Shown: positions 11,392-54,563 of the stretch, in pieces
How the letters are laid out: each line of letters opens with the position of its first letter
Numbering within the stretch: position 1 is the stretch's first letter
NCBI RefSeq assembly: GCF_000346465.2
Contig: NC_034009.1
Location: forward strand, 16,689,741-16,753,740
Length of the DNA: 64,000 nt
Direction of reading: 5' to 3'
DNA from: Prunus persica
Taxonomy: Eukaryota > Streptophyta > Magnoliopsida > Rosales > Rosaceae
Program-made: the position numbers and the translations under genes
The notes under the pieces: model-generated
The model's database searches: none
What the model saw: the letters and a program-made list of their open reading frames with translations, nothing else
Told to the model about the DNA's origin: nothing

Positions 11392-11821
11392 TATTAGTCT
11401 TTGTTATATCTGCAATATTCTTAATGATCAACTTGGGAAAGTCTTTCCAGCAAAAACCAAAAAAACTTGGAAAAGTCTTGTAAAAAAGGACCCCTCTTGT
11501 CTAATCAAAGAGGGACCGGACAGACTTTTTTAAGTGGCCATGCTTGTGGAAAAATTCTACAAGCATATGAATTCTAATTTAGTGTAGGCAAAGCAATAAT
11601 TTAGATTCCTTGTCAAATTCCAATAATACCATGTCGAAAAAATTAGTTGAACAGTCACACCCCATACTTTGAGCAAATATTCCAAAGCAAATTCAGAGAA
11701 ATATTTCACTAAATTAACGTTGGTATATATTTGTTGACCTGAAAAATTATCAACATTTATTAATAATAAAAATAATTCAATACCAGCCTAAGCTGTGAGT
11801 TAATAGTAACTGATAACATCT
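11392..11821 (-). repeat. Conserved upstream block of the small membrane-protein gene family
   Basis: A block starting TATTAGTCTTTGTTATATC and containing CTGCAATATTC, CTTGGAAAAGTCTTG and GAGGGACCGGACAGAC recurs upstream of the other family copies (35918-36100, 53391-53500, 53940-54090) and alone at 58082-58200. From 11578 to 11821 it matches 54328-54563 with few differences. It is part of a segmental duplication and may hold shared promoter sequence; that role is an inference. Confidence 0.7.
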
Positions 11822-13800: not shown

Positions 13801-13805
13801 TAAAT

Positions 13806-13823
13806 TGGCGACTCTGCTGGGGA
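13806..13823 (+). other. Primer-binding site of the Ty3 element
   Basis: The sequence TGGCGACTCTGCTGGGGA resembles the tRNA-complementary primer-binding site of Ogre-type Ty3 elements and lies between the LTR end and the gag start codon at 13844. One base differs from the TGGCGACTCCGCTGGGGA form I recall, which would weaken priming. Confidence 0.7.
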
Positions 13824-13843
13824 CCAAGCTGCCATTTTCACTA

Positions 13844-25785: not shown

Positions 25786-28238
25786 TCAGTTCTTGAGAGG
25801 GACAGATTGTTTGCATGTATTTCGGTAGTGGCCCTTCACACCACACCTTGAGCATTTGTTTTGCCGGGAGTCCTCTCCTTTGGAAGGTATTCTTTGCATT
25901 TTGCGACGGCCCGGCATAACCTTACAAACAGGAGGAAGGATTTTGACATTGTTCAAATGTTCGAGAATAACCCATGTGCCTTTAGGTGGTACAAGATAAA
26001 TAGATTCAGCATATGCAGCTGCCCATGTAGCTCGTGTATAATAAGAAGAGGCAAAGGAGTAGGGGTTCAATTTCAAGTGCCGACATACCGCAATAGCATG
26101 CTTGCACGGGAGTTGCTCCAAGTCAAACTTCCTGCACGTACAACTACGGTTTGCCAAGTGCACCAGACCGTTCAAATCACCATCCAGAACATTATACTCG
26201 ACATCATTGATTTTGACCACATTCATCCTTGACGCAGCGTCTAACCTCTTCCTTAACTTCTGTTCACCCAAATCAGGGCACAATGTAGAATGACATTTCA
26301 TTGCTAAATCTCGACGTTGACTAAACCAAGTGAGAAGTAGATTTGTGATTTCATCGATCAAGTGTAGCACCGGAAGCATCCTTGCAAAACGAAGAACTGA
26401 ATTAATGGACTCCACATTATTCGTTGTCATCACATTATATTGTCGTCCATCACAGTGGGCCCGAGACCACTTCTGGACGCCTGCACGTAGTAGATAAGTT
26501 CGCACTCGCTCATTGTTTATCATCGAGAAGTGACGATTGAACTCCGCTAGACGATAAGACTTCGCTGCCCTTACAAAATACCCCAATATCGGATCCTGTT
26601 GCTTCAAGTGAAATGAGGCTTTCATATTGCCCTTCAAGTGATAAAAGCAAATACCATGGCTTGCCCCAGGAAAAACTCTACGCAACCCATGTTGTATGCT
26701 AACATTGCGATCAGATATGACAACAAGATTCGAGCAATCACCAATTGCACAATGTAATTTTCTCAAAAACCACTCCCATGCTGCATCCGTCTCCTAATCT
26801 CCAATCCCAAAGGCAACAGGATATATGTTGCGATTTCCGTCAAATGCGGTCGCAACAAACAAAACACCTTTATACTTGCACTTCAAATGGGTAGCATCAA
26901 CAGCAATCACGGGCCGCATTGACGACTTAAATCCTCGTATGCATGCACCAATTGACATAAAAAAAAAATATAACTGGTCGGCTGCATCAGTCTGAATGTA
27001 TGCCAAAGTTCTCGGATTTATATGCTCCAATTCATAACAATAGGAAGGGAGAAGGGAATACAACTCTTCTGCAGACCCTCTCATTGTTTTGAAAGCTAAC
27101 TCTTGGCTTCTCCAAGCTGTAGAGTAGCTTATGCTGACACCAAATTTTTTTTCACATCTGTCTTTATATCAGCTGCAGTGTAAATGCTGCGCGAATCCTG
27201 AAATCTCCATTTAACACAGTCAGACACCAATTCGGCCGTAGCTTGAGGATGGTGATTACTTACAAACCTCAGATCACATTCATGAAGTGGATCGTATTTA
27301 ACAACCTTAAACTCATGTAATCCAACTTTATATGCCCGAACTTTCCAAGGGCAAGGCACCTGCCAACAGCGAACACACAACCGACGCTTCCCAGATTGGA
27401 CTGTTCTGAACCAAAAGTGGCCTCTAATTGCTGCTAAACTGATGGTTTTTAAAAGGGCAATCTTATTTGGATAAACTCGGCCAACCTTCAAATTTGCTTC
27501 CCAATTTATGCACGAAAGGCCTCCACCATAACCAATATATTCCACACTCTCACCATGCTTCGAATCAACCCGAATTGTATGCATTTCACTCGAACTTGAT
27601 TGCCGGGGAGGTTCAGATTGCACCTGTCTACACTGCACAGTGGAGGGTTCCGCATTGCTGTCCTCATGAGGATGCACAATTGGTGCAGAGTACGGTTCCT
27701 CTTCATTGCTAGGTTGATACAAATCAGCAACTATGTTTTCACCGCTTTCAAAATGAACTTCTTGAACCCAATCACTCCAATTAAAACCATTCCCACCATT
27801 TTCAGTTTCATTGTCCGAAATTACCACATGTCTTTGTTCCACAACAAAGGTAGCAGGAGCATTGCTACTCTCAACGTTTACAATGCCATTGCACCCTTCA
27901 ATACCATGACCTTTGATATTTTTCAAGCTTGCTACTAAAGGGGTTACTTTAGAGGCCATAACATCTGTGTTGTACTTGAGAAAATATTGAACATCATCAT
28001 TGTCTTCAACCCTTATGTGCTTACTGACAGATGCGGATACAGGAACTGAATACTTCAATGTGACACTATATTTCGTGGGCTCTGCATCCATGATCTTATA
28101 AATGCGTTGAACAAGGTCGGAAAACGTTACGTTCCGTGACACTATTATGCCTTTAGCCTCCCCACCTTCATGACTCTCAATATTATCCTTCTTAACCCAA
28201 CTTCCATTGTAGCATACCAAAATTCTAACTGTATCCAT
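25786..28238 (-). pseudogene. MuDR-type MULE transposase, nearly intact with two lesions
   Basis: The start ATG at 28236-28238 follows an acceptor (TTATTTGCAG), so a 5'-UTR intron is likely. The N-terminus looks PB1-like and is followed by an acidic linker, then a MuDR DNA-binding segment (about 27480-27170). The DDE core keeps its three acids in VIAVDATHLK, VVISDRN and NNVESINS. A SWIM zinc finger (CTCRKF...PCKHA) and a CCHC knuckle (CSRCG...HYRNTC) end the protein near 25786. One base is missing in an A run near 27150, shifting the frame, and a TAG lies at 26794-26796. Otherwise about 816 codons are open. A TATA-like TATAAAAG on the minus strand at 29287-29294 could be its promoter. The element ends were not found; the left end may lie in a gap. 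Confidence 0.9.
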
Positions 28239-29590
28239 TTCTGCAAATAACATAAATAATTACTACACCGATTCATAACACTAAAAAAGAAAAAATTGAT
28301 GAATAAAAACATACACAACAATCATTCCACTACACATATCATCTTCTAAATCCTCAAATCTTCAAACTGAAATTGTAGCTGCTTCAACAAGGAACTTTTA
28401 TTCCTTTTTGTTTTTTCTCTGATTTTGTACATATCTGTGGGTTCCAAGTTATTAACAAACTAACATACACATACAATGGCAGAAATATGAACCCTCTAAC
28501 CCTCCAAGGCTTTTGCACAAATGTAAACACCTTCAACAAAAGGATCAGGTTGTGATAGAAAACGTATAATGTAGTACAAGCTCAATTACCAAATTCGAAA
28601 CCAAAACACACAAACTATACTTCTTACCAAAACAAACCTAGAATGCCAATAAATTCCCCACATTAGCATCTAAATTGAGCCTAACACTAGCCGTATTTAC
28701 AAATTTTTAGGCCAGACAAAGTTAACATATGATTTTTCTGTGTGCTGTTATTTTCACCATTATCAAACACATTGCACTACATTATACACGCATTCGGTCA
28801 AATTTTAAACAAAATTCAAGTTCACCAGACAGATCCCACTGCAGATAATATCACAAACTATGAATTTCAACATATCATAACTCCTTCAAACTGAAAATTT
28901 AAGCTTTTAGGCCCTCTGTGGTGAAAAGGGGATTTCATAATACACATACACTACCAAACCAATATCACAACTCACATCCGTTCACAACGACGCAGGAAGT
29001 CGCCACTTTCGCTTCTCTGTGGACTCGCAGCAGTCACCTCGATCTGGAGGTCAACAATGGAGGCCGTGCCTTCCGGCTTCGCTGCGCCCAAACTAGGGTC
29101 CCAAATTTGAGGACATCTGGGTTATTACGATGGATGGGTTGCGAACTGGATTGCTCAGTGGCAACATGTCTCACAACCTGGAGTTCCCCCAATTTTTGTC
29201 AACCTTCCAACACAAAGGAGAGAGAGTTTTAGGAGTTCAGACAAGTTCCCTTTCAGAAAAGGGGTGGCAAAGGGTTGCTACATCTGCTTTTATATGGAGG
29301 GCAGTTTGGTCATTTCACGTCCACAAGGGATTATATCGGAACACAATTTGTAACCTGATCATTTCAGAACACCACTTGTGAAAGGTGATTATATCAGCAT
29401 ATTTCCGAATATTTTTCTCCTTAGGGATTTTTTAAAAATACCAAAAAATTCTGAATTGTTTTCTATAAAAACCTACCAATAGTTTTCACTTTCCACACCA
29501 AATCTTCATACAAATTCATCTCCTTCCAATATTATTCACTTTCCACACAAAATTTTCTACACTAAAAATTTCATTTGTGTAAAAATACAA
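28239..29590 (-). promoter_or_regulatory. 5' leader and putative promoter of the MuDR pseudogene
   Basis: This holds the inferred 5'-UTR intron and a TATA box (TATAAAAG, minus strand, 29287-29294), preceded by CTCCA. GC content rises at 28980-29120, as in a leader exon. Plus-strand frames at 28918-29381 have no domain. The element's outer terminus probably lies near 29400, but no partner inverted repeat was recognised. Confidence 0.45.
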
Positions 29591-36126: not shown

Positions 36127-36135
36127 TTTGAATAA

Positions 36136-36240
36136 TACAAAATTAGTGAAATACCCAATTGTAGACATGAAACTATAAATATACCCTACATGATTTAATA
36201 CATATAAACACACCCAAAACACACCCAATTGTAGAAAGCT
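36136..36240. repeat. Left terminal inverted repeat of the MULE
   Basis: This pairs with 50745-50848. Shared blocks are TAGTGAAATACC/CACTAATATACC, ATAAATATACCC/ATAAAAAAACCC, CACATG/TACATG and AAACACNCCCAAAA. Identity is moderate, so the ends have diverged or belong to a loosely conserved family. Confidence 0.7.
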
Positions 36241-36416
36241 GTCTATTTTTGTATTTTATTTTCTATGTTAGATTACGTTTTTGACCTTTTGGTTCGAATA
36301 TTTTGAAACATGCCCAAAACTCGCCAGCTAGGATAGGAATTTCTTGAAATTTACGTTGGTGACCTCGTAACAGAAACCTGTTTGGCAGCCTCAGCAGATC
36401 GAATATTCCAAGCGAG

Positions 36417-36496
36417 CTTCGTTCACTTCTTCGAACGAAGGAAGCTTCGTTCATCTCTTTGAACGAAACGAGTTTCGTTCACCTCTTCGAACGAAG
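36417..36496. repeat. Three tandem GTTCA/TGAAC hairpins near the MULE left end
   Basis: CTTCGTTCACTTCTTCGAACGAAG (36417-36440) is an inverted repeat with a short loop. Two similar units follow, at about 36445-36470 and 36473-36496. They lie in the 5' leader region of the transposase gene. A transposase-binding or regulatory role is conjecture. Confidence 0.7.
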
Positions 36497-37064
36497 CTCA
36501 GTATGATGTGGTTCCAGATCTTCTTTTTCGATTCTTCTGAGCTTAGTATGGCGTAGATTGGAGTTCTATTGCTTCAATTTCTTTTTCTTTCTTGTTTGAT
36601 TTGGTGATTTTTGGATTGATATGCGCTGCATGAGACTCGATTGGAGCTTGGTGAGATCTGTGATCTTCGATTTTTGAGGTATTCGATTTTTTCTTGTGAA
36701 TTCATATTCGTTTTTGGAGGTATTCGATTATATTGTAGTCTGCTTTTTGGTGATTTGATGCTCGATTAATTAAGTTGCTGATTAGGTTTTCGTTTCTCTT
36801 TGTTTATAATTTGGATTGATTTCAGATTCGTTTTGATTGTGGATTTGCTCTTGTGTTTTGGTTTGAGCTGTGGTGAACAATTTGTGTTATTCGATTTAAT
36901 TGAGGTATGCTTTTTCAGTTGAATCTGAGTATATTCGTGTTTTTTCTGTTTATGCGCTATTGGTTTTTGAGTCGACTATAATTCATTGTTAATGCACTCG
37001 GCATCCACTGTTATTACTAGTAGTCATTTTTGTTTTGTTTGTTGTTTTTTTTGTAGAGATATAT

Positions 37065-39596
37065 ATGGATGATTCGAGAGTGGCGAAGTGCACCTATGGT
37101 GCTGGAACTTTAATGCTTATTTTGTCTTCAACTACTACTTTTGATTGGTTGTCCAACGAGTTGTGTAGTAGGTTTAAGCTTAAGTTAGGTCATTTTGAGT
37201 TAAGGTACTCTTTTATGGATTGCTCCAATTGTTTGTTGGAATCGGACGATGATTTGAAAATCATGTTTATGGTATGTGGACTGATGAAGGATCAATTAAT
37301 TCACATTGCTGTTAGGGATAAGGCTGTAGTGAAGCATGTTCAAACTGTTAATACGAACATGATTGCTTCTCCTTTTTTGTTGGAGTCTGCTCCTAACAAT
37401 TACAGTTTTGCACAAGATGAGGATACATGTAAAGATTCAAGTCAAACTGGTAGTATTGTTGATTCAAGTGCTGCTTCTTCTTCTTGTTTGAGTATGGATT
37501 TTGATGGTATTAGCAGTGAGTTTGGAAATGAATATTTAGGCAAATATGGTAGTTGTGGAGGGCGTAAATATTTGTCTACTGATTGGGAGGGTTATATTAC
37601 TCATGAGGGTCAGAAGTTTGAGGGTGGAGTTTGTGAATTCCGTGATAAGTTGGCTAAGTACGCGATTGAGAATGGTTTTAAGATGAAGTATTTGAAGAAT
37701 GAGCCTCGTCGTGTTACTGCTGTGTGTGCTAAGAAGGAATCAAATGGCTGTGAGTGGAATGTGCATGCTGTTAAGTCCAATGTAAATGGATTTTTCTATA
37801 TTAAGAATTTAAATAATGTACACAGTTGTAGTGGTTTGATCCGTGAGAAGAGAAATAAGGCAATGGGGTCTCGTTTGGTGTCTTCAATTGTCAAAGATAA
37901 AGTTCGTAGCAATCCTTTGGTAAGGCCTATTGAGCTAATTACTGATTTGAAAGAAAATTATGGATTGGATGTCCCTTATCATGTTGCGTGGTATGGGAAG
38001 GAGTCGGCTACTAAGGATTTACATGGTGATGAGGAGTTGTCTTATGCTCACCTGCCTTGGTATGTTGATGTTTTGAAGGCCAGCAATGTCGGGTCTCATT
38101 GTGTGCTTGACTGTGGCGAGGATGGTTCTCGTTTCCAGCGGATCTTTATATGTTATAAGGCCTCCATTGATGGTTTTCGATGGTGTAGGCCTATGCTGTT
38201 TATTGATGGTACTTTCGTTACAAACAAGTACAAGGGTACTCTTCTAGGAGCTACTGCAAAGAATGGGAATAAAGGTATGTAATGTAAATGATTTAGTTGT
38301 TGACTTCCATTGAGTAGTATGAACAGTATAGGTATGCAAATGTAAATGCTGTAGTTGTTGACTTCCAGTTAGTGGTATGAACAATTGTTATACTGTTTGT
38401 TGACTTCCATTGAGTGGTATGAACAGTTTCTATACTGTTCATACCCTGCATCTGAGTATTTTTATGCATTGTAGTTTTACTCTGCTTCATGTGGTAACAC
38501 TGTTAGCTCTTGCAATGTTCAAACTAACTAATATATTTCTCTGTTTTTTGTAGAGGTATTCCCTTTTGCCTTTGCTATTGTATCCGGTGAAACTGCTGAC
38601 AATTGGAGGTGGTTTCTGCAAAGGATATCTGAAGTTTTGGTGGATGAAGGTAGGCAACTTACATTCATTTCTGATAGGCATGGTGCTATTATCGATGCTG
38701 TTAGGACTGTTTTTCCTGCTTCTGCCCATGGTTTTTGTCTATATCATTTGAAAGAGAACTTGAAAAAGAAGTATCCGCATTCTGTTGGTTCCTCTTTCAA
38801 GGATCATATTTTATGGCTTTTTTGTAAGTTGTTGTATGCACCGACTGTTGAGGAATATCAAGATATTTTGAAAAAATTAAGAGATGATGGCGGTTCAAAA
38901 ATAATTGATAAGTTTTTGGCTAATCTCCCTGTCCAAAATTTTGCTAATGCATTTTTTCCGGGAAAGAGGTATGGGGAGGTTAGTAATGCCTTGTCCGAGT
39001 CGTTTAATTCATGGGTTAAGGATGTGCGTAGGCTTCCAATTTATGAGATGATTGACACTATTAGGGTCAAAATGATGGAGATGATTTCTAGGAGGAAGCT
39101 TGCATCCGAGAAATGGTGTAGTGTTTTGTGTCGGGTTATTGAGGATGAGTTGAAGAATTTAGCTGCAAAGGGTCGTCATTGGAGGATATGTCGCGCGAGT
39201 GAATCTATATTTGAAGTTCATGCTGATTTGAGTGTTATGGTCAATTTGGACGAGAGGTTTTGCTCCTGTTATCAGTGGCAATTGCTTGGGTTTCCGTGTC
39301 AGCATGCGATTCAAGTTATCCAACATTCCGGGTTATGTTTGTATAACTTTGTTGATGAGTATTACAAGGCAGACTTTTATAGGGCTACTTATGCAACCCC
39401 TATATTTCCTATACCTGATATTGAGAAGCCTCCTGCTGGAGATGTTTTTCTTCTACCTCCGCATACAAGAAAGCCTCCGGGACGACCTCCGACAAAGCGC
39501 TTCAAGTCAAGCAGTGAAACTACAAGGCAGTTGAAGTGCAAGAGATGCGGTTCTTGTGATCGTCATAATAGGAGGACTTGCAAGGCTCCTATTTGA
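37065..39596 (+). CDS. MuDR/MULE transposase, intact, two coding exons
   Basis: The coding exons are 37065-38274 and 38554-39596, joined across a GT-AG intron (AAAG|GTATGT ... TTTTTGTAG|AGG) within one codon; the product is 750 aa. The start is the MDDSRV ATG, because an acceptor (TTTGTAG) lies just before it and implies a 5'-UTR intron. There is a PB1-like N-terminus, then a MuDR zinc-binding domain (CEFRDKLAKYAIENGFKMKYLKN). The DDE catalytic acids are Asp381 (FIDGTF), Asp444 (ISDRHG) and Glu552 (LSESFN). A SWIM finger has Cys640, Cys642, Cys652 and His654; a CCHC knuckle has Cys732, Cys735, His741 and Cys746. It would cut and paste elements bearing the terminal repeats at 36136 and 50848. 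No lesion was found. Confidence 0.93.
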
Positions 39597-40196
39597 TGTA
39601 AAGGTTTTGGAGTATAAAGACTTGAATGAGAGTAGTTAGTCTTTAACTAGTTAAAGTGCTATGTGATTGATTAGTGACAATCATAGTTGAAAGGAATAGA
39701 AATTGATATGCAAGTTGTTAATACGGTGAAATAGCAGTCACTGCATATGAATACTGTTTGAATTTTCGGTATTAATACATAATATGTACCATTTTTGGTA
39801 TTTTGGAAATTTTGGTTTTGAAGTTTGATATGAATTAAGCATTACTGCTGTTTGAATAATCTATAAATGAAGGAACACTGTTTTAATACCCACTGTTTAT
39901 GTCATTGTTGAAATTAAAAGATAGTTCTATGACATGGTATTAACAATTTATTTCTATCAAATAGGATTAACATTGTATTGAGAGTGCGTTGTTATTTGTT
40001 GGAGTTCACCTTTTTAGTTGTTTTAGTGTTATGGAGACCATTATTTCAGGTTACATACACTGTTAATTCACGTAAATAAACTGATTTTTGAATAAGTACA
40101 TAACTTGAATTTGAAAATCACTTTACTTCAATGTTCTAAACCTACACAAATCCTAAGAAACTACAATATAAGCAAGAATTTTTGCAAAATATTTGA

Positions 40197-43100
40197 TTAC
40201 AACTTCGTTCCTTTGCATTTCTCTCCTCTTTCTTTGATGGAAATCCAACTTCTTTCATTGCTCATAATTTTCATGAGAACTTCTTTTCTCATTTCCCAGA
40301 CCTTTTCTTTGTTGAAATCTGATTCTATTTGTTGGTCTTTGGAAAGCTGCTTCATGAAGTGCATGACAAAGACGCCACAATCATTGCTGCATAATAGAGA
40401 TACGCATGCAGGAGTTAGTTCAGTATTTTTTTCAGTTGAATAGGATTAAAGTTTCACTGTTATTGCGTAACTTACGAATTGTTTGCTTGTTGGGGGCATT
40501 CTCTGTTCTCAGTCAGCTTGAAGTTAGTAGTATCATGACGAATCAGATACTTCAATGTCTGAGCATATTCCGGTGTAAGTTTGTTGCTGGCAAGCATTTT
40601 TGCTATCATTCTAGCTGAAGCTTCATTAAGCCCTCTCGGCTTCTTGGCATCAAAATCAGGAATTTGGACGAGTTTTGTTTTCAGTGATGCTGCAGCACAT
40701 TCCTTAAGAAGACAGAGGAATATATTCGCTGTCTCAACCTGCATCATAGTCATAGTCAAGTATGTGCGTAGTTTCCTTTAAATTTAGTGTCCTATGTATT
40801 AACAGTGTTAATCACCAGTTTTACTTACCAAAACAATTGCCTTCTTGTGATAATATTCGAGAGTTTGTTCTGATGTCCCCCTGAATGAGTTGAAGTGTGT
40901 CCATTTTGCTGCACCGGTGTCAAAGACAAGCAGCGTATGGTGGTTCTCATCTGTAATTGGTATGAACACTCTATCAACGCTTCCAATATTTTCTAGGAGT
41001 GGCATATAGAAAGCATGATATGTCAGCTTGTGTGAAGCACCTCGCAAAAACATCTGCATAAGTCATGTGTTGGTGATTAGTAACTATGTTGATGATATAA
41101 TATTGATGTATTATATGTGATCTTACATAGTTATTGGCGGACAAATATGCATTTTTTTGTTTCTGAGGGTTCTGCTTCGCATCATCATTAAGTGCCTCTC
41201 CATAAGCATCGATGATTAGTGCAGAAATTGGATCATCTCCCATCAGCTTTTCAATGTTATGTTTGTACAATACTGTCCTATTGTGTAGGTAAAAAGCGCC
41301 CCTGAACAATAATGTTGTTTAAATAATAATTCAGCAAATAATAATGTCATAACAGTTTAATAGCAAGACAGTTCTACGGCATAGTATTAACAGTGTAATT
41401 CTATGACAGTTCTACGGCATAGTATTAACAGTGTAATTCTACTACAGATTGGCTTACTCATCGGAATCAGATGCAGATATCCAGTAATTTTCCAAATTCT
41501 TCTTTGATTTTTCATCCAGCCTGTTGTAGACCTCATACATGCGCAACTGAAGGTATGTATCTTTGTCCTTCTTTTTTTTGTTGGGTGCTTCATCTTCGCT
41601 TTGGCTTTCTCTTTTTCGGGCTTTCTTATGTGCTTCGGGGTATGTGTAATCTGGTTTCTTTGCAGGCTTTCTGTCTTTTCTGTCTTTGATGATTTTGATG
41701 CCAGAACGTAATTGCCTGGTTCCTACTTCTTTCGCTTGCAGGAGAACTGACTTTTCAGGAGTTTTTTCATCAGCATTCTCATCTTCATCATTAGGAGTTT
41801 CTTGCACCTCCAATTCACTTTCTTCTGCTATTCTCTCATCTTTTTTCTCCTTATTAGCTTGTTCTTTCATTGTAATTTCTCCTTGTTCACCTTGTGTGAA
41901 ATTTTTTCCCATCACATGTTTCAAAGAGGCAATAACAGTGTCTTTTTCTTTCATGCTCTCAATGCAGGACAACTTTTCCCCTTCAAGTAGTTCATGTTGT
42001 TCCTGTAGCTGTCTCTTGTTTGTTTTGAGTGCATGAAGTTCCCCTTGTAATTTTGCACCTTCTTTTTTCTCTTTCTCAAGCTGCTTTTTCAGTATTTCAA
42101 TTTCTTTCTCCAACTCTTCTTTTTCTGTCCATATTTGTTGAATGAATGATTTTTTCTTTATGCAGGATTCTATAGCACTCTGCATCATATCCCTTCGAGT
42201 ATCTGCCTTTTCAATCCAATAGTCGACTGCTTCTTTTAGCTGTTGGATTTTCTCATGGGTAGAGACTATTTCATGCTTGTAGTACTCTGGGATTGAACCC
42301 ACTATGTCCTCAAAAATGGTGTTGAAGTCTTCTTCCTGGCCGTCAAGGTCTGGATGCTGTTGCTGGACATTAACAGTGTCCCCCTCCGTCATTGAGTCTC
42401 TGCTAAGGTCAACTGCTTGTTCTTCAATTTCATCATCTGCTTCGCATCCCGGTGCTTGTGCTGGTGGTTCTTCAATTTCATCATCTGCTTTGCATCCCAA
42501 TGACTCTGTATTGTCTTCATTTTGCTCCTGTTGTGGAGTGTTTGTCTGGGTTGCACTTTGGTCCACATTTTCATGGAAGTTGAAGTTCTGTTTCTGGGTA
42601 ATAACAGTCTGCTTTTTTCCTTTTTGTGTTTGACTCTTTAACTGTCACAAATATTAGAAAGGAAAAAAAGATCATTAGCAAATTTATATACATGTATATG
42701 TGTGTGTCCACCATCAATTCAGTTTTGAAATATAAATGTTGGGTCATTGTAGGTTATCTTACCCAATCTTTAAGTGTGATAACAAAGTCATCATCCTCTT
42801 CATTTTCTTCTTGTTCTTCATGGTCTGCGTGATCAGTCGTTGCTTCTTCTTCTTTTTCATTGTCTGCAGCTTTTATCTGTTGAATTATTGGAGTCAGTAG
42901 TAATTATGGTGTACTAACATTATATATGTTTATGGAAGTAAGAAAAATGCCTTAATGTTTTCATATTTTGCAATATTCAGCTTGATATTGAGCTCCGGAA
43001 GGCTCCATTTGACAGCCGCTGGTTTATGATCTTCTCTTCCAGGAATTGGACTGATCAGGTTAGTTCTTTCACACAGCCAATACTGCAAACATGTTTTTCA

Positions 43101-44588
43101 ATATAAAGTGTTAATGCACGTGAAAACAAATAATATAATAGGATTAACAAATAGATGTAGTTTCTTACCAGGATTAGCACAAGGCAACCACTGACACTTG
43201 GTTGATTTGTCTTGTGCTTTTTATTTTTCATGGCTTGGTCCAGTCCAAAATGCATGTAATCTAAGACTCCTTGTGCCCAGTTGTAGCTGTTCATTGCTTC
43301 TAAGGTGTCAATCATAGTCAAAAAGGTCCAAGCCATTGTCGCCCCCGAGTTGCAAAAGAGATTTGTGATGAGGAGCTCTAGGATTAACAACCTCACAACA
43401 TCCATTGCATTGTTCTTTCTGTCATCTGCTATTGCTGTGTTCAGGCACCTATCAACCTCAGTTTTTGTGATTTTTTTTGAATTCTTGAAGTACTTCTTTT
43501 CAAAGCCCAAATTTGTTCTTGTGGAAGTTGTTGTGCTTGGCAACTTGTTTCCTTTGTTAGGCAATCCAAAGATTTCAGACACATCATTGCTTGTAATTTC
43601 ATACTCGTTGCCTTCACTGAATTTGAATTTTTTGGTTTCGGGGTTGTAGAACCTGATTAGTCTAATTATTTGATAATTAGACTTCTGGCATTCTACCTTG
43701 GTGAGCTGACCTTCCATGTAAGCCTTGATGATGCTCCAGAATGGCGTTTTTTGTAGGATCTTGAGGACATCCTTTCTTGCTGCAAGCTTGTCTTTTACCG
43801 TTTGCAATGTGTTGTCAAATGTGAGCATGTTGCTCTTGATCTGCACATAATTTGGGTTATTGCGTCTGCTTGGTTTGGCTTTTGCTGTTGTTGGTGGTGT
43901 GCCTTGTGTGTTTGTTGATTTTTTTTTGCTCTTTTTCTGGCTTGGGATACTTTTGTATGCTTTTTTTTTGAATTTCAACCCGGTTACCTTTTTCCATATG
44001 ATCACCTGCAAAGTGAAACAAATATGTTATTTTAACTAAACAAAAGAAAGATGAAACATAAGTATTAATACTTCTATGACATGGTATTAACCATTTACTT
44101 CTATGCATTTGAACCTCATATGCATTTCTAGTGCATGTTGCACTAGAAGAGCAAAATGCATAGAAGTCCCAGATTTTGATTAACAAAGGATGCTACATAT
44201 GTTGGTCTTCAAGTGCACTCAGTGCACTAGAAGAGCAAGACACATAGCATGCTATATATTTTGGTCTTCTAGTGCACTGCAAGCAGTGCACTAGAAGAGA
44301 GAGATGCATAGCAGCCACAGATTTTGATTAACAAAGCACTGCACTAGAAGAAAGGATGCTACATATGTTGGTCTTCAAGTGCACTCAGTGCACTAGAAGA
44401 GCAAGACACATAGTATTAACAGTTGTGACATAGTATTAACAGTTCAAGTTCTATGACATAATATTAACAGTTGTGAAACATATACATCGCAGTCAAAACA
44501 TGCGTTTTTTCAGAACATTTCTATCGGACTTTGAAGTTAAGAGATTTTTTAATACCTGGGAGTTTGATTGTGATGCTTTTTCAGCCAT
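40197..44588 (-). CDS. ULP1-like (C48) cysteine protease of the MULE, gene A
   Basis: Nine minus-strand coding exons join without a stop: 44556-44588, 43169-44005, 42951-43082, 42763-42876, 41458-42641, 41127-41301, 40829-41053, 40476-40738 and 40197-40386. The product is 1050 aa. Residues 12-290 form a conserved N-terminal domain (PNYVQIKSNM, SEIFGLPNKG, NLFCNSG, PSVSGCLVLI), perhaps related to plant mobile domains. Residues about 373-767 are charged and contain a long coiled coil. The C-terminal 280 form the C48 fold: FIPI...HHTLLVFD with His864, HFNS with Asn880 in place of the usual Asp, and CPQQANNSNDCGVFVM with Cys991. This class removes SUMO or related modifiers. The start exon is chosen by phase: only ATGGCTGAAAAAGC joins the exon-2 frame. 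The third donor is AAG|GC, not GT. Confidence 0.85.
44100..44420. repeat. Palindromic TAGTGCACT repeats in the first intron of gene A
   Basis: Words such as AGTGCACTAGAAGAGCAAG and GGATGCTACATATGTTGGTC recur three or four times. At 44266-44297 CTTCTAGTGCACTGC and its exact complement GCAGTGCACTAGAAG form a 15-bp stem with a 2-nt loop. The region lies in the intron between the first and second coding exons (44006-44555) of the protease gene. Confidence 0.8.
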
Positions 44589-45462
44589 TTCTGAAGCTTC
44601 TTCGTTTGATTTGGGATGGTCTTCTGTGCTTTTGCATCTTGACTGTTTGTTTCTGTCATTGTTGGCCCTTTCGTTGGTTACCTGTATTAAACGTCGTACT
44701 CTTGCATTAGTTAGCAGAATCTTAAGATGAAAGTAGAAAGTGAGTTTGGGTTTTTGGGATTGTACCTTATGTCGATGTTTATGGTTGAAATTTTCTTCCT
44801 TTTTCCCTGGGTTGTCCTTGTGCTCAGTTGCTTTTTTCCTGGGTTTTGTAGTGTCGATTTTGAAGACTTGTGGCTATGGCAGAATATAACTTCGATTCGC
44901 CGGCTTTCTCGTAATGGAGTTTGTCTCCTGTCTGGTGGTTATGGAGGTTTTCGCCTGCTTTTGGAGTTGGTGTCGCAGAGATTGGGGTTAGAGGTGAGTG
45001 GGTTTTCGGCTTTTGGGTGCCTGCGTGTACTGTTGTTTATCTAGGCTTAGATTTTTTTTGTCTTTCAATGGGCTTAGTTAAATTGGGCTTTATTGGCTTG
45101 TTGAGTTTTCTGGGCTTCTTTTTTTATGAGACTTTTTTAGTTTATTTAGTTTATTTGCTTGATTTGTTTTGGGCTTTATTTCGTTTCTGAACTTGATTTT
45201 CTGAAGTTGGGCTGGGCTTTTTGAAAGTCACTGTTAATACGCATTTTGAACATTGTTAATGCGCAGTTTGAAATTTAGAAGAAGCTACACAGTAACAATT
45301 TTTTACATTTGAATCTCACTACACAGTAACTATTAGACATTTGAAAGTTAAGAAGCAGCAAAAGATTTTGTTTAGAAGCTACATATTAACACTTTGACAT
45401 TTGGAAGTTAGAAGCCGGACATTTACTATTTTATAGTTCTAAAATTTGTGAAATCCATGCTT
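44589..45462 (-). promoter_or_regulatory. Promoter and 5' leader region of gene A
   Basis: This 874-bp spacer between gene B's stop and gene A's start holds gene A's leader and promoter. At 45065-45220 there are six TGGGCT words (plus strand), for example near 45069, 45083, 45110, 45168, 45206 and 45211. These match the site II core TGGGCY bound by plant TCP factors. Gene B's upstream region shows the same. An out-of-frame ATG (ATGACAGAAAC) precedes the chosen start. Confidence 0.45.
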
Positions 45463-48400
45463 TCATCCTTCATTCCCTTTTGTGAAATACCAACTTTTTT
45501 CACTTTCCATTGTCTTCAATAAAACTTCTTTTCTCATTTCCCACACATGCGCTGTACTCAAGCTTTCTTCAATTTTTTTTCCTTGTGACAACTGCTGGAT
45601 GTAGTACATGACAAATACTCCACAATCGTTTCTGCAAATTCAGACATATGTATATGTAACATTTAGTGAATCATAGTTTAATTTGAATTGGGGGAAGAAA
45701 AGTGTTATTGTGACACTTACGACTTTTGGGGTTGTTGGGCGCATTCCCTGTCCTCCTTAAAGTTGAATTTTGTGGGATCATGTTTCATCAGATATTGTAT
45801 TGTTTGAGCAATTGCTGGTGTAACTTTCAAGTTCGGAAGAAGTTTTGCAACCTCGTAGGTGAATTCTTCATTGTAGACGGGCTTCTTGAACTCAAGAAGT
45901 GTGAAGCTGTTTTTTTCTAAAATTGATGGAGCACATTCCTTGACACTATTGAGGAAGACATTTGATGCGTCTGCCTGCATTTTAGGCAAGTATGTTGTTA
46001 GCTTCACTGATTAAATGTTTTGTTCATGCATTGTATTAACAGTTCATATTAGGAGTCTGTCTTACCAAAATTATTGCTTTTTTGTTGTAGTATTCAACGG
46101 TTTGCTCAGTTTCCCCCCACAATGAGTTGTAGTGCGTCCATTGCGATGAATTGGTGTCAAAGACAAGCAGGGTGTGGTGTCCGCCATCCGTTATTGGTAT
46201 GAACACCTTTGAAGTCTTCCCTATGCATTCAAGGAGTTTGACAAAATATTCATCGAATGCTCTTGGGTGCATTTTACCTGTGAGATACCTCTGCAAGATT
46301 AATAGTTTCGGCATTAGAGAGAATGTGAAAAATATAGGAAGATGAATAATTTGTGATTTTTACTAGAAGTAACGGGATAGGTATGATCTTTACGTATGCG
46401 TAGCACGTGATGTATGCATTCTGTTGTCTTGCAGGATCCTTCTTTTCATCATCATGAAGTATCTCGGCATACGCATCTATGATTTGTCCATAAATTTCAG
46501 TATCTCTGAATAAGCTTTGTATGTCATCTTTGAACAAAATGCTTGTCCCTTGCCAAAAAGCAGTGCTGTAACAGTATTTGTAGTTAGAAAAAATGTCAAT
46601 AAATTGAAAGAACTGTTCAATAGAGTTCCAGTATAGCGTAATAATACTGCTTGTTTCCTTAAAAAAACCTTTTCCTAATGCATGCCTACCATGTAAAGTT
46701 CCAGTATAGGGTAATAACACTGCTTGTATCCTATGAAATCCTATATCTAATGCATGCCTACCATTGTAAAGTTCCAGTATAGGGTAATAACACTGCTTGT
46801 ATCCTATGAAATCCTATAACTAATGCATGTCTAACCACTGTAAAGTTCCAATATAGGGTAATAACACTGCCATATTACTCTGAAATCCTATAACTAATGC
46901 ATGTCTACCCGCTGTAAAGTTCCAGTATAGGGTAATAACACTGCCATATTACTCTGAAATCCTATAACTAATGCATGTCTACCCCCTGTAAAGTTCCAGT
47001 ATAGGGTAATAACACTGCTATATTACTCTGAAATCCTATAACTAATGCATGTCTAGCCCCTGTAAAGTTCCAGTATAGGGTAATAACACAATGAAATCCT
47101 ATTTTCTAATGCATGTTCAATAATAGCATCTTGCATTGAAAATGAATGAAACACATTGCCTTACCCATCAATTGAACTTTTCCAGTAATTTCTCAGCTTT
47201 TCTTGTGAGAGTTCATCCAGCATGTTGTAGACCTGATATGTATTCCATTGCAGGAATGAACCTTTGGCCCTCTTCTTTGATTTGGCTGGTTCTTGAGGTT
47301 GTTTTGCAAGCTTTCTCTTTTGTGCTCTTGTCTCTGCTTCAGGGAATGAGGAATCTGGTTTTCTTGATTTTATCTTTTCTGCTTCACCTTCTTTCTCTTC
47401 TACTTTATCTTCTTCACTCTGCAGTTCTTGCGCTAATTTTTGATCCCTCAATAGGGCAATAACAGCTTCCTTTTCATTAATAATTTCCAAGTAGGAAATC
47501 TTCTCCGCAAGAAGTTGATCATTTTCTAGCTGCAGCTTTGTCATGTAGGATTTTTCCTCATACATATCAAGTTGTATGGCATTCTTGTGATATGCTGCTT
47601 CCTTAACCATCTTCTGCAGTTGCTGCTGATGCTTCCTTAATTCTTCTTTTTCATTGTACAGCATCTGAATCAATTTATTCTTTTTTATGCAGGATGCTAT
47701 TGCATCATGGATCTTTTGATGCTCTCCTTTCTTTGTCCAATATTCAGCAGCATTGTTGATCGCAATCATGTATTCTTTTGTAAGCTGTATTTCATCCTCC
47801 TTGTATTCCGGGACAGATCCAACATTTTCCTCAAATAACGTTGAATTCCGGTATTGCTGGTGGTGTTGCTGGTGGCCTTCTTGTAGCTGATGGTGTTGCT
47901 GGACTTGATGTTCAGCAGCATCATCATGCTCTTCATTCATTTCAGCATCCTCCTCTTCATTTTCTTCTTCATCAGCATCACCATGCTCTTCATTCACCTC
48001 TTCAGCAGCATCATCATGCTCCTCATTAACTTCTTCAGCAGCAGCATCCTCCTCTTCATTCTCTTCTTCAGAATCATCATCCGGCTCTTGAGCTTTAGTG
48101 CTTTTTATCTGTTTGTTGAGTAGAGTTAGCATTAAGAGTGACATGGTATTCATAGTTTACTTCTATGACTGGAACTTGACAGTGGTAGAAAAGCACAAGA
48201 AATAGGATTTCAAAGAGAACTAGTAGTGTTATTACCCTATATTGGAACTTTGCAGTGGCAGACATGCGTTAGAAATAGGATTTCCTAGGGAACAATCAGT
48301 ATTATTACCATATACTGGAACTTGACAGTGGTATAAAAGCACAAGAAATAGGATGTCTATGACATGGTATTAAGAATGTATGTCTATGACATGGTATTAA

Positions 48401-49408
48401 CAGTACCTTTATCTGGTTGTTCTCTAGATGATGAAGCTTCGCGCTGAGTTCTTGAAGACTCCATTTGACAGCTGCTGGTGTCATTTGTTCTCTTCCAGGA
48501 ATTGGAGTGAGCAGGTTAGATCTTTGACACAGCCAATACTGCACAATATTTTATTGCAATATCATGTGTCAATTCATATCATTTAAAGTAATGCTACGAA
48601 TTTGCAGTTTGGAGATTGGTGTTCTTACCGGTATTAGGATTAGGCAGCCACTCACGCTTGGCTGCTTCTTTTTGTCTTTCTTGTTCTTCTTTGCTTGTTC
48701 TAATCCAAAATACATGTAGTCCAAAACTCCTCGAGCCCAATTATATTTCCCCATCTCTTCTAAGGTGTCTATTGTGGTTGTATATGTCCAAGCAAGTGTA
48801 CAACCAGAGTTGCAGAAGAGATTGGTCATGAAGAGTTGTAGGATTATCAATCTTGTTGTATCCATAGCCCCCTCTTCTGTTTCATCTTCAAGTGCTAAGT
48901 TCAAGCACTTATCAATTGAAGTCTTTGTTATCTTCTTATAACCCGAGAAGTACTTCTTTACAAAATGGAGATTTGGCCTTGTTGAGGTTGTTGTGCTTGG
49001 TAGCTTCTTGCCTCTGTTTGGCAAGCCAAAAATTTCAGACACATCTTGGCTTTTCATCTCACTGTCACCATCACCAAACCTGAACTTCTTTGTCTTCGTG
49101 TCATAAACTTGTATGAGTCTCACAATGTCATAGTTAGACTTCATGCACTCTACCTTCGTTAACCTTCTCTGGATATATGCTTCTATCAATGTCCAAAAAG
49201 GTGTCTTTGATAGCAGTGTTAAGACATCGTGCCGTTGTTCAAGTCTTTGTCTGATGTTGTCAATTGTTGTTGCAAAAGAGAGCATGTTGCTCTTGATCTG
49301 GACATAATTTGGGTCATCCCATCTGCTTGGCTTCTTGTTTGTTTTTGTTATGGCTGATGACTGTTGTCCTTTTGGTTTGGAGGTTCTTCTGGTTTGTATT
49401 TTCTTCAT
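45463..49408 (-). CDS. ULP1-like (C48) cysteine protease of the MULE, gene B
   Basis: Seven minus-strand coding exons stay open: 48629-49408, 48407-48538, 47165-48108, 46394-46565, 46066-46290, 45721-45974 and 45463-45631. The product is 891 aa. Exon phases match gene A exactly, except that gene A's fourth and fifth exons are one here and gene A's short first exon has no counterpart. The start ATG at 49406-49408 lies 16 nt after an acceptor, and an in-frame TAA precedes it. The N-terminal domain is shared (PNYVQIKSNM, SEIFGLPNRG, NLFCNSGCTLAWT, PSVSGCLILI). The middle is a very acidic EEVNEEHDDA repeat region plus a coiled coil. The C48 part has His715 (HHTLLVFD), Asn731 (HYNS) and Cys839 (SNDCGVFVMYY). 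Sequence divergence from gene A is large, so the duplication is old. Confidence 0.85.
46701..47095 (+). repeat. 74-bp minisatellite in an intron of gene B
   Basis: CCAGTATAGGGTAATAACAC recurs at about 46701, 46773, 46848, 46922, 46996 and 47070, so the period is about 74 bp with six copies. It lies in the intron between the third and fourth coding exons (46566-47164). The same unit in reverse orientation fills the leader intron at 49440-50330. Confidence 0.9.
48170..48330 (-). repeat. Minisatellite copies in another intron of gene B
   Basis: Two units (GTTATTACCCTATATTGGAAC and the TACCATATACTGGAAC variant) lie in the intron 48109-48406, in the orientation opposite to those at 46701-47095. 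They match the array at 49440-50330 closely. Confidence 0.8.
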
Positions 49409-49439
49409 CTTTTAATTTGTATACCTGCATTAGAAATAG

Positions 49440-50330
49440 GAACATGACAGTAAAGTATCGATGTTAATACCCTATACTGGAACTTGACAGTGGTAGAAAT
49501 GCACAAGAAATAGGATTTCAAAGAGAACTAGTAGTGTTATTACCCTATATTGGAACTTTGCAGTGGCAGACATGCGTTAGAAATAGGATTTTCTAGGGAA
49601 CAATCAGTATTATTACCATATACTGGAACTTGACAGTGGTAGAAATGCACAAGAAATAGGATTTCAAAGAGAACTAGTAGTGTTATTACCCTATATTGGA
49701 ACTTTATTTACAGTGGCAATATGCGTTAGAAATAGGATTTCCTAGGGAACAATCAGTATTATTACCATATACTGGAACTTGACAGTGGTAGAAAAGCACA
49801 AGAAATAAGATTTCAAAGAGAACTAGTAGTGTTATTACCCTATATTGGAACTTTATTTACAGTGGCAGACATGCGTTAGAAATAGGATTTCAGTGTACAA
49901 TCAGTATTATTACAGTGGTAGAAAAGCACAAGAAATAGGATTTCAAAGAGAACTAGTAGTGTTATTACCCTATATTGGAACTTTATTTATAGTGGCAGAC
50001 ATGCGTTAGAAATAGGATTTCAGTGTACAATCAGTATTATTACCATATACTGGAAATTTACAGTGTTAGGCAAGCATTTCAAAGGGGATTTCATAGGAAA
50101 CGAGTAGCGTTATTACCCTATACTGGAACTTTATTTACAGTGGCAGACATGCGTTAGAAATAGGATTTCATAGTGTACAATCAGGGTTATCGACCCTAGA
50201 TTAGTGACTAGAATAATGCTCCTATGCATTTATTCCAGTAGTGAATCCTATATAGTTTCAAGATTTTGTCCTTCATTCGAATTTAAAATACTGTTATTAC
50301 CCTAGACTGGATCTTTATAGCAAATAATCA
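49440..50330 (-). repeat. Large minisatellite array in the leader intron of gene B
   Basis: About ten units of roughly 73 bp carry TTATTACCCTATATTGGAAC or TATTACCATATACTGGAACT. They are the reverse complement of the array at 46701-47095. Two alternating unit types suggest a higher-order repeat of about 145 bp. The array lies within the inferred 5'-UTR intron (about 49425-50350). Confidence 0.85.
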
Positions 50331-50350
50331 ATATTACAGTAAATGTCTTA

Positions 50351-50744
50351 CCTTTGAAGCGTTTTCTTGTCGAAATTGTTCTCTGAAATTTTGTCTTGGT
50401 TCTGAAGGTGGAGGTCAGTGTCTGGTGTTCGTTTTGAAAGTAGATGAAGCTTCGTGGTGATTATGGAGTCTCGGTTTTGCAGACGATTTGATGAAGACGA
50501 AGAGTGAAGAGACGTTTTGCAGAGATAGCTTAAATGAAGGCGCGCGTGCTGGCAGTTAAGTTACTGTTTGTTTACTTTTACGGTTTACTTTTTTTTTTTG
50601 GGCCGAAAGTTATGGAATACGAGATGGTACAATGTTTGGGCTTGTTTATAAATTTGGGCTGGGTTTGTTTTGGGTGTTTTTTGAGTTTTTTTCTGTTGGG
50701 CTTGATAGTGGCAGTGCTGTAATTTATTGGAACTTCAACACTAA
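50351..50744 (-). promoter_or_regulatory. Leader exon and promoter of gene B
   Basis: On the minus strand a GC-richer segment without any ATG ends in CGCTTCAAAG|GTAAGACA (donor near 50351), as a noncoding first exon would. Upstream are TGGGCY words near 50598, 50637, 50656 and 50697, like those upstream of gene A. The transcription start is not resolved. Confidence 0.5.
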
Positions 50745-50848
50745 TTTGTTATTTAATAAATGGATTTTGGGAGTGTTTATGAAGTGTTTTCCATGTGGGG
50801 TTTTTTTATAATTTCAGCTCCTATTTTAGGTATATTAGTGAAGATCCC
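50745..50848. repeat. Right terminal inverted repeat of the MULE
   Basis: This pairs with 36136-36240 and also matches the left end of the miniature element at 33569. It ends TATTAGTGAAGATCCC at 50848, followed by the TTTGAATAA duplication. Confidence 0.75.
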
Positions 50849-50857
50849 TTTGAATAA

Positions 50858-53247: not shown

Positions 53248-54563
53248 TGATGAAAGCTCAAAAGAAAGTCTTCTACTCTCTGTAGAGTTCTTATGTTCAA
53301 CTAGCAAGAGGGACTAGATGTTTTGAACGTTTCTGTTTCTAAGAGAGCATGGACCACCTCTTGACAATGGAATAAGTTACTATTATATACATGGATTTAT
53401 TTATTACTCTTATATCTGCAATATTCCTAATGATCAACTTGGAAAAGTCTTCCCAGCCAAAAAAATAAAAAAATAAAAAATTGGAAAAGTCTTGTAAAAA
53501 AAGGACTTAATTTGTGTGTGGAGAAAGGTTCAAGATTTTCATTTTTTGTTCAAATCTCGACTGTGTGAGTATATTTAATAAAAATAAAATAAAATAATTA
53601 GAAACTAACAATCCAAAAAGAAATTAAGCAAAATCAAACTTAGGCAAACCAAATCAATCCTAAAGATACCAATGGAAAGAAGCTTCAAATAAGTTGATTT
53701 TTAAAGTTAATGTCTGTTATATATCTGCAATAATCATGGGGCATTCTAAAAGACTCTATTATCAAAGAAATCCTAGCCTCCCCTCTGTCAAAAAAAGCCA
53801 TTTTCACTTTTAGGAGGGAGGAAGTCACAGTTCTTCCTTCCCTCCCCCATCTTCTATTCCTCCCTTCTCCTCTTTTCCTATTTTCAAAAAACAGAAAGTT
53901 TTCTATATTTGTCTTAGTTTTGTTATAATTTTCCTAATAGATTTATTTATTAGTCTTTGTTATATCTGCAATATTCCTAATGATTAACTCGGGAAAGTCT
54001 TTCCAGAAAAAACCAAAAGAACTTGGAAAAGTCTTGTAAAAAGGGACCCCTCTCTTGTCCTAATCAAAGAGGGACCGGACAGACTTTTTCAACCCGAGGG
54101 GTCGATGTGGTGACATTACAGAGCTGTGGTTTTAGTGCTCGTCTGGTTCGACTGGTCAGTCGTCCGCCTGAGCTAGTGTCGGTGTGGGCTTTGAGTCCAC
54201 ATCGTGGTGCTAGTGGTTAATTCGGCTCAGTCAGCCTCCTGTGTCAACTACCACCATGTATACAAACATGGTACAGACAACCGCTTTTTCTGTAGCCCTT
54301 TGAGCCAATACAATAAGATTTTGTAATTTAGTGTAGGCAAAGCAATAATTTAGATTCCTTGTCAAATTCCAATAATACGCATGTCGAAAAAATTTGTTGA
54401 ACTGTCACACCCCATACTTTGAGCAAATATTCCAAAGCAAATTCAAAGAAATATTTCACTAAATTAACATTGGTATATATTTGTTGACCTGAAAAATTAT
54501 CAACATTTATTAATAATAAAAATAATTAAATACCAGCCTAAGCTGTGAGTTAATAGCAACTGA
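53248..54563 (-). repeat. Duplicated upstream region of family copy 3
   Basis: The block found at 11392-11821 occurs here twice in part (53391-53500 and 53940-54090). 54328-54563 matches 11578-11815 with only a few mismatches (AGTGTAGGCAAAGCAATAAT, CACACCCCATACTTTGAGC). An unrelated pyrimidine-rich stretch (53800-53890) and a dispersed repeat (54086-54325) interrupt it. Confidence 0.75.
54086..54325 (+). repeat. Dispersed repeat, partial copy
   Basis: GGGTCGATGTGGTGACA, TTTTAGTGCTCGTC, CACCATGTA..ACATGGTACA and CTTTGAGCCAATACAAT match the repeat copies at 58345-58857 and 60113-60540. Its nature is unknown. Confidence 0.65.

Follow-up and report, generated by a model that had tools for sequence, protein, structure and literature searches.

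Why plant transposons keep ULP1-type proteases is an open question, and a 2026 review calls the role of the Ulp1 domain unknown (PMC13317346). A 64,000-nt window of the peach (Prunus persica) genome, the whole stretch of DNA analysed here and the frame for all element coordinates below, contains a complete Mutator-like element (MULE) at 36136-50848 (14,713 bp) in which a transposase gene faces two tandem genes, ULP-A and ULP-B. Both are predicted to encode a His-Asn-Cys protease with a plant mobile domain (PMD) at its N-terminus. What is new here is that the non-coding DNA of the element (6.7 kb) holds two family-specific motif families, M1 and M2. We put roughly even chances on the element being an autonomous MULE family of Prunus in which ULP-A and ULP-B would be Kaonashi-type, sequence-specific anti-silencing proteins resembling Arabidopsis VANC; the data suggest, without proving it, that the element escapes silencing with the help of the two proteins.

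Boundaries, genes and copies of the element

The element is flanked by a perfect 9-bp duplication of TTTGAATAA. When both flanks were joined with one TTTGAATAA and searched against the genome (227.5 Mb, 192 contigs), two paralogous empty sites were recovered, each with one TTTGAATAA and without the element: at C1:16647293-16647643 the joined flanks matched over their full length (89%), and at C1:16662096-16662299 the match spanned the junction (91%). Because two paralogous empty sites hold a single TTTGAATAA, both element ends are exact to the base, and the bounded, complete MULE of about 14.7 kb proposed in a preliminary description of this DNA was borne out. The left flank also recurs at window 53992-54092 and 11436-11562 and at 16.647, 16.662 and 16.677 Mb of C1, a cluster of duplicated segments.

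36127..36135, unstranded: left target-site duplication TTTGAATAA, present as a single copy in two empty sites
36136..36235, plus strand: left terminal region, degenerate terminal inverted repeat, aligned to the inverted right end
50749..50848, minus strand: right terminal region, degenerate terminal inverted repeat, from the inverted alignment to the left end and genomic matches
50849..50857, unstranded: right target-site duplication TTTGAATAA, from reading of the flank and the empty sites

The duplication had been described as flanking terminal inverted repeats, which proved to be degenerate: the alignment within 100 bp has 73 columns, 54 of them identical, and 2 of 5000 random pairs scored as high (the direct-orientation control scored 20), whereas the outermost 14 bp or so of the two ends do not align with each other. 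The terminal inverted similarity is genuine but degenerate. Genome searches in which 40 candidates were scored for each end placed base 1 at the start of 40 of the 41 matches listed for the left end and 35 of the 42 listed for the right end. A tandem repeat with a 28-bp unit rich in TTCGAACGAA lies near the left end, at 36410-36497, and a search of Rfam gave no match.

Two exons encode the transposase, a product of 750 aa that we identified as a MULE transposase with DNA-binding and SWIM domains (PF03108, PF10551, PF00872 and PF04434 all above their cutoffs, the start of PF10551 in exon 1 being below the Pfam cutoff). Searches for protein relatives scored the approximately 8,000 candidates with most shared words; for the transposase, P0016 was 94% identical over 100% of the length.

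37065..38274, plus strand: transposase exon 1, with PB1 (PF00564) and MuDR DNA-binding domain (PF03108), both above cutoff, and the start of the MULE domain
38554..39596, plus strand: transposase exon 2, with MULE/Transposase_mut and SWIM zinc finger (Pfam PF10551, PF00872, PF04434)

ULP-A (8 exons, 980 aa counted from the first in-frame ATG at 43828) and ULP-B (7 exons, 891 aa) lie in tandem, both convergent to the transposase, and their exons align pairwise.

43169..43951, minus strand: ULP-A exon 1, with the plant mobile domain (PF10536 passing its cutoff and DUF1985 falling short of its own); the reading frame has its first ATG at 43828, and where the gene truly begins is uncertain
42951..43082, minus strand: ULP-A exon 2, followed by a GC donor, junction as in P0008
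42763..42876, minus strand: ULP-A exon 3, acidic, from the gene model
41458..42641, minus strand: ULP-A exon 4, helical region with basic tail, from the gene model
41127..41301, minus strand: ULP-A exon 5, from the gene model
40829..41053, minus strand: ULP-A exon 6, where the catalytic His is predicted to be the leading residue of HH (codon from 40942) and Asn stands for Asp (codon from 40891), from the SENP1 alignment
40476..40738, minus strand: ULP-A exon 7, PQQ motif, from the gene model and the SENP1 alignment
40197..40386, minus strand: ULP-A exon 8, predicted catalytic Cys (codon from 40379) in NDCGVF, stop, PF02902
48629..49408, minus strand: ULP-B exon 1, start and plant mobile domain, P0001 opening with the same MKK
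48407..48538, minus strand: ULP-B exon 2, from the gene model
47165..48108, minus strand: ULP-B exon 3, acidic peptide repeats at about 47919-48089 and helical region, from the gene model
46394..46565, minus strand: ULP-B exon 4, junction present in P0001
46066..46290, minus strand: ULP-B exon 5, predicted catalytic His (codon from 46179) and Asn (46128), by analogy with the alignment of ULP-A to SENP1
45721..45974, minus strand: ULP-B exon 6, AQQ motif, from the gene model
45463..45631, minus strand: ULP-B exon 7, predicted catalytic Cys (codon from 45624), stop, PF02902

All three genes are open, as had been reported, and the counts of two exons for the transposase and seven for ULP-B were retained, while ULP-A has eight exons and not nine. 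The ninth exon was rejected, its upstream ATG being out of frame through a run of nine A, and for the same reason the start of ULP-A is uncertain; its relatives P0008 and P0013 have an annotated start at MLTF. Splice donors and acceptors are canonical in all models save for one GC donor in ULP-A, which four of the six full copies of the element share, the search pattern being unmatched in the other two. The junctions are common to the annotated relatives P0001, P0002, P0008 and P0010 (apricot, almond, flowering cherry) where the exons exist, and this is support rather than proof, because P0002, P0008 and P0010 are each short of at least one exon or exon part, and the annotation may be prediction only.

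PF02902 (Peptidase_C48) scored above cutoff in the C-terminal parts of both proteins (ULP-A, E 1.1e-11; ULP-B, E 2.4e-9), as did the PMD of both against its Pfam cutoff. The best match of ULP-A among solved structures was SENP1 (E 0.0044), with the catalytic His, PQQ and DCG aligned; the His-Asp-Gln-Cys set of active ULP1/SENP enzymes is incomplete, as His, Gln and Cys align and Asp is replaced by Asn. The same Asn occurs in a second peach family described below and in P0001, P0008, P0010 and P0011, and therefore marks the group as a whole and is no sign of damage. Asn as third catalytic residue occurs in other cysteine proteases. The predicted structure of an apricot relative of ULP-B (15 sequences) had a mean pLDDT of 37 and was not used.

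The C48 domains and the SENP1 alignment would also fit proteins that counter SUMO-dependent silencing generally, by removing SUMO from host factors without reading any motif of the element. We regard this as quite improbable: it leaves the family-specific motif arrays unexplained, the Asp of the catalytic triad is Asn in both proteins, and according to published opinion Kaonashi-type proteins probably do not act on SUMO (PMC6117577). Taken with the example of VANC, the motif arrays and the N-terminal PMD point more specifically to sequence-targeted anti-silencing than to SUMO interference.

Besides the window copy the genome contains five full-length copies, in which all exons were matched in order (some only partly) and the gene order of transposase, ULP-A and ULP-B is identical. 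The tandem pair of ULP1-like genes facing the transposase is confirmed, and the search for further copies with the same ends and gene order, and for empty sites, that the preliminary description had proposed was positive on each count. The sister copy C6:24.08 (C6:24083395-24098482) is approximately 98-99% identical to the window copy, and copies C3:11.15, C8:9.68 and C8:9.65 are approximately 82-94% identical (longer segments); C6:19.10 is interrupted, with its right terminus beyond the stretch read. All three genes are open in the window copy only. C6:24.08 has one stop in ULP-A and a 1-bp insertion in ULP-B, with sequence that is missing or of low quality close to where transposase exon 2 starts, and an assembly gap as its left flank, and the other four copies have several stops or frameshifts in each of ULP-A and ULP-B.

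Among 14 regions read, 10 had a perfect 9-bp duplication and one a duplication with one mismatch, the remaining three giving no test (a flank gap, a solo left end, and a stretch ending before the right end). The seven short derivatives that were read (2.1-2.4 kb) share the element ends and include two groups of three with 99.3-99.8% identity within each group, which is a sign of recent movement. The element is complete and recently mobile. We also considered whether loci with only a ULP-B match might be ancestral elements with one ULP gene, and rejected this; the two that were read out of five such loci (C3:8.93 and C7:13.56) have no match to a catalytic exon and look like deletion derivatives. 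The solo left-end fragment at C1:14591134 is flanked by the 9-mer TATAATTTT, which is also the right flank of the C6:24083395-24098482 copy, and is perhaps a misplaced assembly piece of that copy, whose left flank is a gap.

Motif arrays in the non-coding DNA

M1, CATRGTATTAACAGT, has 157 genomic sites compared with one for the reversed control. All five exact copies within the element fall outside coding sequence, and at up to two mismatches the six full copies contain 44 forward and no reverse sites. Seven of the 18 non-coding segments contain the 9-mer GTATTAACA, whereas no 9-mer reached more than five in 200 Markov simulations. M2, GTGTTATTACCCTATACTGGAAC, is found in 73/74-bp tandem repeats in two ULP-B introns and in the right terminal region, with 19 copies in the element and none in the 49 kb of the window outside it at up to four mismatches; its 21-base core has 58 genomic sites compared with none for the control. 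M2 is present in both orientations, with a single orientation per array.

39933..39947, plus strand: one M1 copy (1 mismatch) between transposase and ULP-A, motif scan
41380..41432, plus strand: two M1 copies in a ULP-A intron, motif scan
44080..44471, plus strand: four M1 copies between ULP-A and ULP-B, motif scan
46029..46043, plus strand: one M1 copy (1 mismatch) in a ULP-B intron, motif scan
46624..47089, minus strand: M2 tandem array in ULP-B intron 3, 74-bp unit, 6.3 copies, tandem-repeat and motif scans
48142..48404, plus strand: three M1 and two M2 copies in ULP-B intron 2, motif scan
49461..50198, plus strand: M2 tandem array in the right terminal non-coding region, unit of about 73 bp, tandem-repeat and motif scans

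Across the genome, a listed family end was found within 4 kb of 25 of the 73 M1 clusters formed by the first 100 of the 157 sites, and of 13 of the 25 M2 clusters, compared with a chance expectation of less than 1%. Two of the remaining M1 clusters were read, of which one had both family ends and the other the right end only. Confinement of M1 and M2 to family members is not proven, because the ends were taken from the matches listed and internal sites of long copies are missed.

One explanation of the arrays is that they are subterminal binding sites of the transposase, with ULP-A and ULP-B acting as accessory transposition factors similar to MURB. One M2 array does lie in the right terminal region, adjoining the element end, and there is precedent in a maize element whose accessory gene is apparently required for integration (PMC6446971). 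Against this, arrays also occur in introns and intergenic DNA, far from the element ends, and the seven short derivatives comprise three with M1 only (more than 99% identical to each other), one with M2 only and three with both. The existence of derivatives with a single array argues against either array being indispensable for transposition, and we consider this explanation unlikely.

If ULP-A and ULP-B are instead anti-silencing proteins, the transposase would move the element and leave the 9-bp duplications, while ULP-A and ULP-B (PMD, then helical region, then His-Asn-Cys C48 protease) would act like Arabidopsis VANC, binding the M1 and M2 arrays in the intronic, intergenic and terminal DNA. 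Once bound they would prevent or remove silencing there, so that autonomous copies and short derivatives stay mobile, and the protease part might strip a silencing factor located there of a SUMO-like tag. Binding, demethylation and protease activity are what we infer from this analogy. That each protein reads one motif, and which of them reads M1 and which M2, is conjecture. On a further and more doubtful version, advanced only tentatively, a Kaonashi/VANC-like protein was duplicated so that each copy reads its own array, with the ULP domain as effector: either array would suffice to keep a derivative active, and the host would have to defeat two recognition systems.

A second peach family, typified by C8:5431400-5440399, has a transposase approximately 47% identical to that of the window element and a convergent PMD gene; in the type locus C48 exons containing His, Asn and Cys are present. 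Counting transposase rows of 40-47% identity (57 rows, corresponding to 56 loci; 117 of 745 candidates scored), we found one PMD match within 14 kb at 40 loci, two at one locus and none at 15, the count being based on PMD exons so that a ULP gene without a PMD exon would be missed. Of the resulting transposase/PMD pairs 41 of 42 are convergent, and the odd one is at the locus with two PMD matches. In the family of the window element, two PMD matches were present at six of six loci. Neither M1 nor M2 was found when searched for in the type locus of the second family, where the motif is the palindrome AGAAACTGCAWTGCAGTTTCT, with 371 genomic sites compared with none for the control; among the sites listed, all on C1, 10 of 11 clusters are at second-family transposase loci. 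Its core GAAACTGCA occurs 39 times in the 5.5 kb of the type locus taken as non-coding and once in 3.5 kb of coding sequence, exceeding the simulation maximum of 24, with exon limits that are approximate (part of the ULP gene lies outside the model).

Age and selection of the protease genes

We counted single-codon changes on the stem of the pair formed by the window copy and C6:24.08. The stem dN/dS was 0.15 for the transposase (N 9, S 15; p 9e-6 against neutrality) and 0.32 for ULP-B (N 19, S 14; p 0.003), and on the terminal branches of the four old copies the values were 0.89 and 0.73, respectively. Because the stem ratios lie below the terminal ratios, the transposase was under constraint while the lineage moved and decayed later (stem versus terminal branches, p 1e-4), and the same probably holds for ULP-B.

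Between ULP-A and ULP-B dS is about 1.05 and dN/dS 0.39 overall, an average over both lineages (PMD 0.26, middle 0.53, protease 0.43), which shows purifying selection averaged over the two lineages since their split. In a tree of the PMD region built from 16 of 19 sequences (P0010, P0014 and P0015 were left out as having too few columns), the ULP-A group contained sequences from peach, flowering cherry, apricot and almond (support 92 when the long-branched P0009 is counted in, 54-65 at inner nodes) and the ULP-B group sequences from peach, almond, apricot, P. brigantina and P. speciosa (support 98). As both groups span several species, the ULP-A/ULP-B split predates these Prunus species, and the sequences identify the two genes as diverged paralogues and old parts of the element.

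A third PMD gene, at C5:1386200-1393199 (L063) and in P0012, is equidistant from ULP-A and ULP-B, at about 62% to each in the first exon, whose reading frame is open. An almond relative of this gene type is annotated as LOC117628483 isoform X2. Of the protease side L063 retains only a weak trace of a single exon (22 aa, E 0.07-0.15), and the 7 kb read revealed no convincing element ends; the gene type is possibly domesticated.

Several results weigh against ULP-A and ULP-B as VANC-like proteins kept by the element. The dN/dS comparison proposed in the preliminary description found constraint on the stem for ULP-B and a ULP-A value not different from neutral (N 29, S 10, dN/dS 0.69, p 0.31; by domain PMD 0.44, middle 1.46 and protease 0.81, with 2-13 changes per class). 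ULP-A had a ratio of 0.53 (p 2e-4) on the terminal branches of the old copies, a value below 1 that fits no simple story, and its stem and terminal branches do not differ (p 0.57). For ULP-B the difference between stem and old-copy branches reached only p 0.054, and the window copy compared with its sister gave a ratio of approximately 1 for all three genes, on few changes (N:S 10:3, 12:3 and 18:4). The DUF1985 matches (30.7 bits in ULP-A, 19.5 bits in ULP-B) are below the curated cutoff of 35.1 bits, and one of 15 relatives had a match at E 0.01. At up to three mismatches M1 has 19 sites in the element, of which three are reversed (16 forward) and three coding (16 non-coding), and two further sites in the window outside it. 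The motif of the second family occurs in six of seven segments of its type locus, which does not exceed the simulation maximum of six. The likeness to VANC and to the Arabidopsis KIU elements is drawn from published descriptions; moreover, the main text of PMC5735166, the paper cited by PMC13317346 for KIU hypomethylation, does not mention ULP, so that the protease may do something else.

The near-neutral ULP-A stem would also be expected if the two genes were captured passengers of the Pack-MULE type, without function for the element, as would the broken ULP-A and ULP-B genes in all five other full copies; host-gene capture by MULEs is frequent (PMC2528002). We nevertheless judge this highly improbable, given the dN/dS below 1 for ULP-B on the stem and between the two paralogues and the occurrence of both groups in several Prunus species, and for ULP-B the selection test largely refutes it. 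The preliminary description had spoken of ULP1-like passengers of Kaonashi type: the kinship holds by description, and the word passenger is misleading, because the genes are old components of the element and ULP-B was under selection on the moving lineage.

Should ULP-A and ULP-B bind the motifs, VANC-type sequence-specific anti-silencing would not be restricted to Brassicaceae, the ULP domain would gain a role, and sequence-targeted demethylation tools in a tree crop would be suggested. Peach offers a natural experiment for this: one family carries two ULP genes and two motifs, a second normally has a single such gene with a different dominant motif, and some short derivatives retained M1 alone or M2 alone.

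Other mobile elements in the window include a minus-strand transposase from a different MULE group at 25789-28259, with MULE and SWIM domains in one open stretch and the MuDR DNA-binding domain in another, and retrotransposon pieces of Copia type and probably Gypsy type at 2686-5877 and 13646-15163.

Comparison with known systems

Motif-guided hypomethylation has already been ascribed to KIU-bearing elements: according to the 2026 review, Ulp1-bearing VANC genes are Kaonashi genes, and VANDALs with KIU genes also recognise their own kind of motif, with hypomethylation as the effect (PMC13317346). PMD genes in MULEs have also been proposed as anti-silencing (PMC5418596). The peach element resembles the Arabidopsis Kaonashi KI-MULEs/KIU in carrying a C48 gene opposite to the transposase (PMC2528002, PMC13317346, PMC6117577), and differs in having two tandem paralogous ULP genes, a PMD N-terminus and weak terminal inverted repeats; the ULP-bearing VANC (KIU) VANDALs of Arabidopsis are described with one such gene per element (PMC13317346). 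As in ULP-bearing MULEs of grapevine, melon and rice, which have ULP in either orientation and may be with or without terminal inverted repeats, the ULP region is downstream of the transposase (PMC2528002), whereas neither a two-ULP element nor motif arrays are described for these plants in the part of PMC2528002 that we consulted. The second peach family shares with that of the window element a PMD gene convergent to the transposase, and differs in its motif and in its usual PMD count (one compared with two).

The closest layout is that of VANDAL21 (Hiun). Its protein VANC21 binds YAGTATTAY, a motif arrayed with a single orientation in non-coding tandem repeats, and methylation is lost sequence-specifically as a result, with VANC6 reading other motifs; VANC proteins combine DUF1985 with variable repeat-rich regions (PMC5735166). 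Both elements are three-gene MULEs with a 9-bp duplication, and terminal inverted repeats are degenerate or absent in the VANDAL group, and some MULE groups lack them (PMC5735166, PMC6446971). Both encode a protein with a variable repeat-rich region, accompanied in peach by a DUF1985 match below cutoff, and both have short one-orientation motifs in tandem repeats of intronic, intergenic and terminal DNA (PMC5735166). The M1 core AGTATTAA resembles the VANC21 motif (PMC5735166), and YAGTATTAY itself occurs in the peach element at six non-coding and no coding sites, compared with one in the 49 kb outside, the sites not being independent because they lie within repeats. Unlike VANDAL21, both extra peach genes carry a C48 domain, there are two motif families, and anti-silencing is argued from analogy. 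Judged by its sequence, the peach element has the layout of a VANC system plus an additional copy of the protein and an additional motif.

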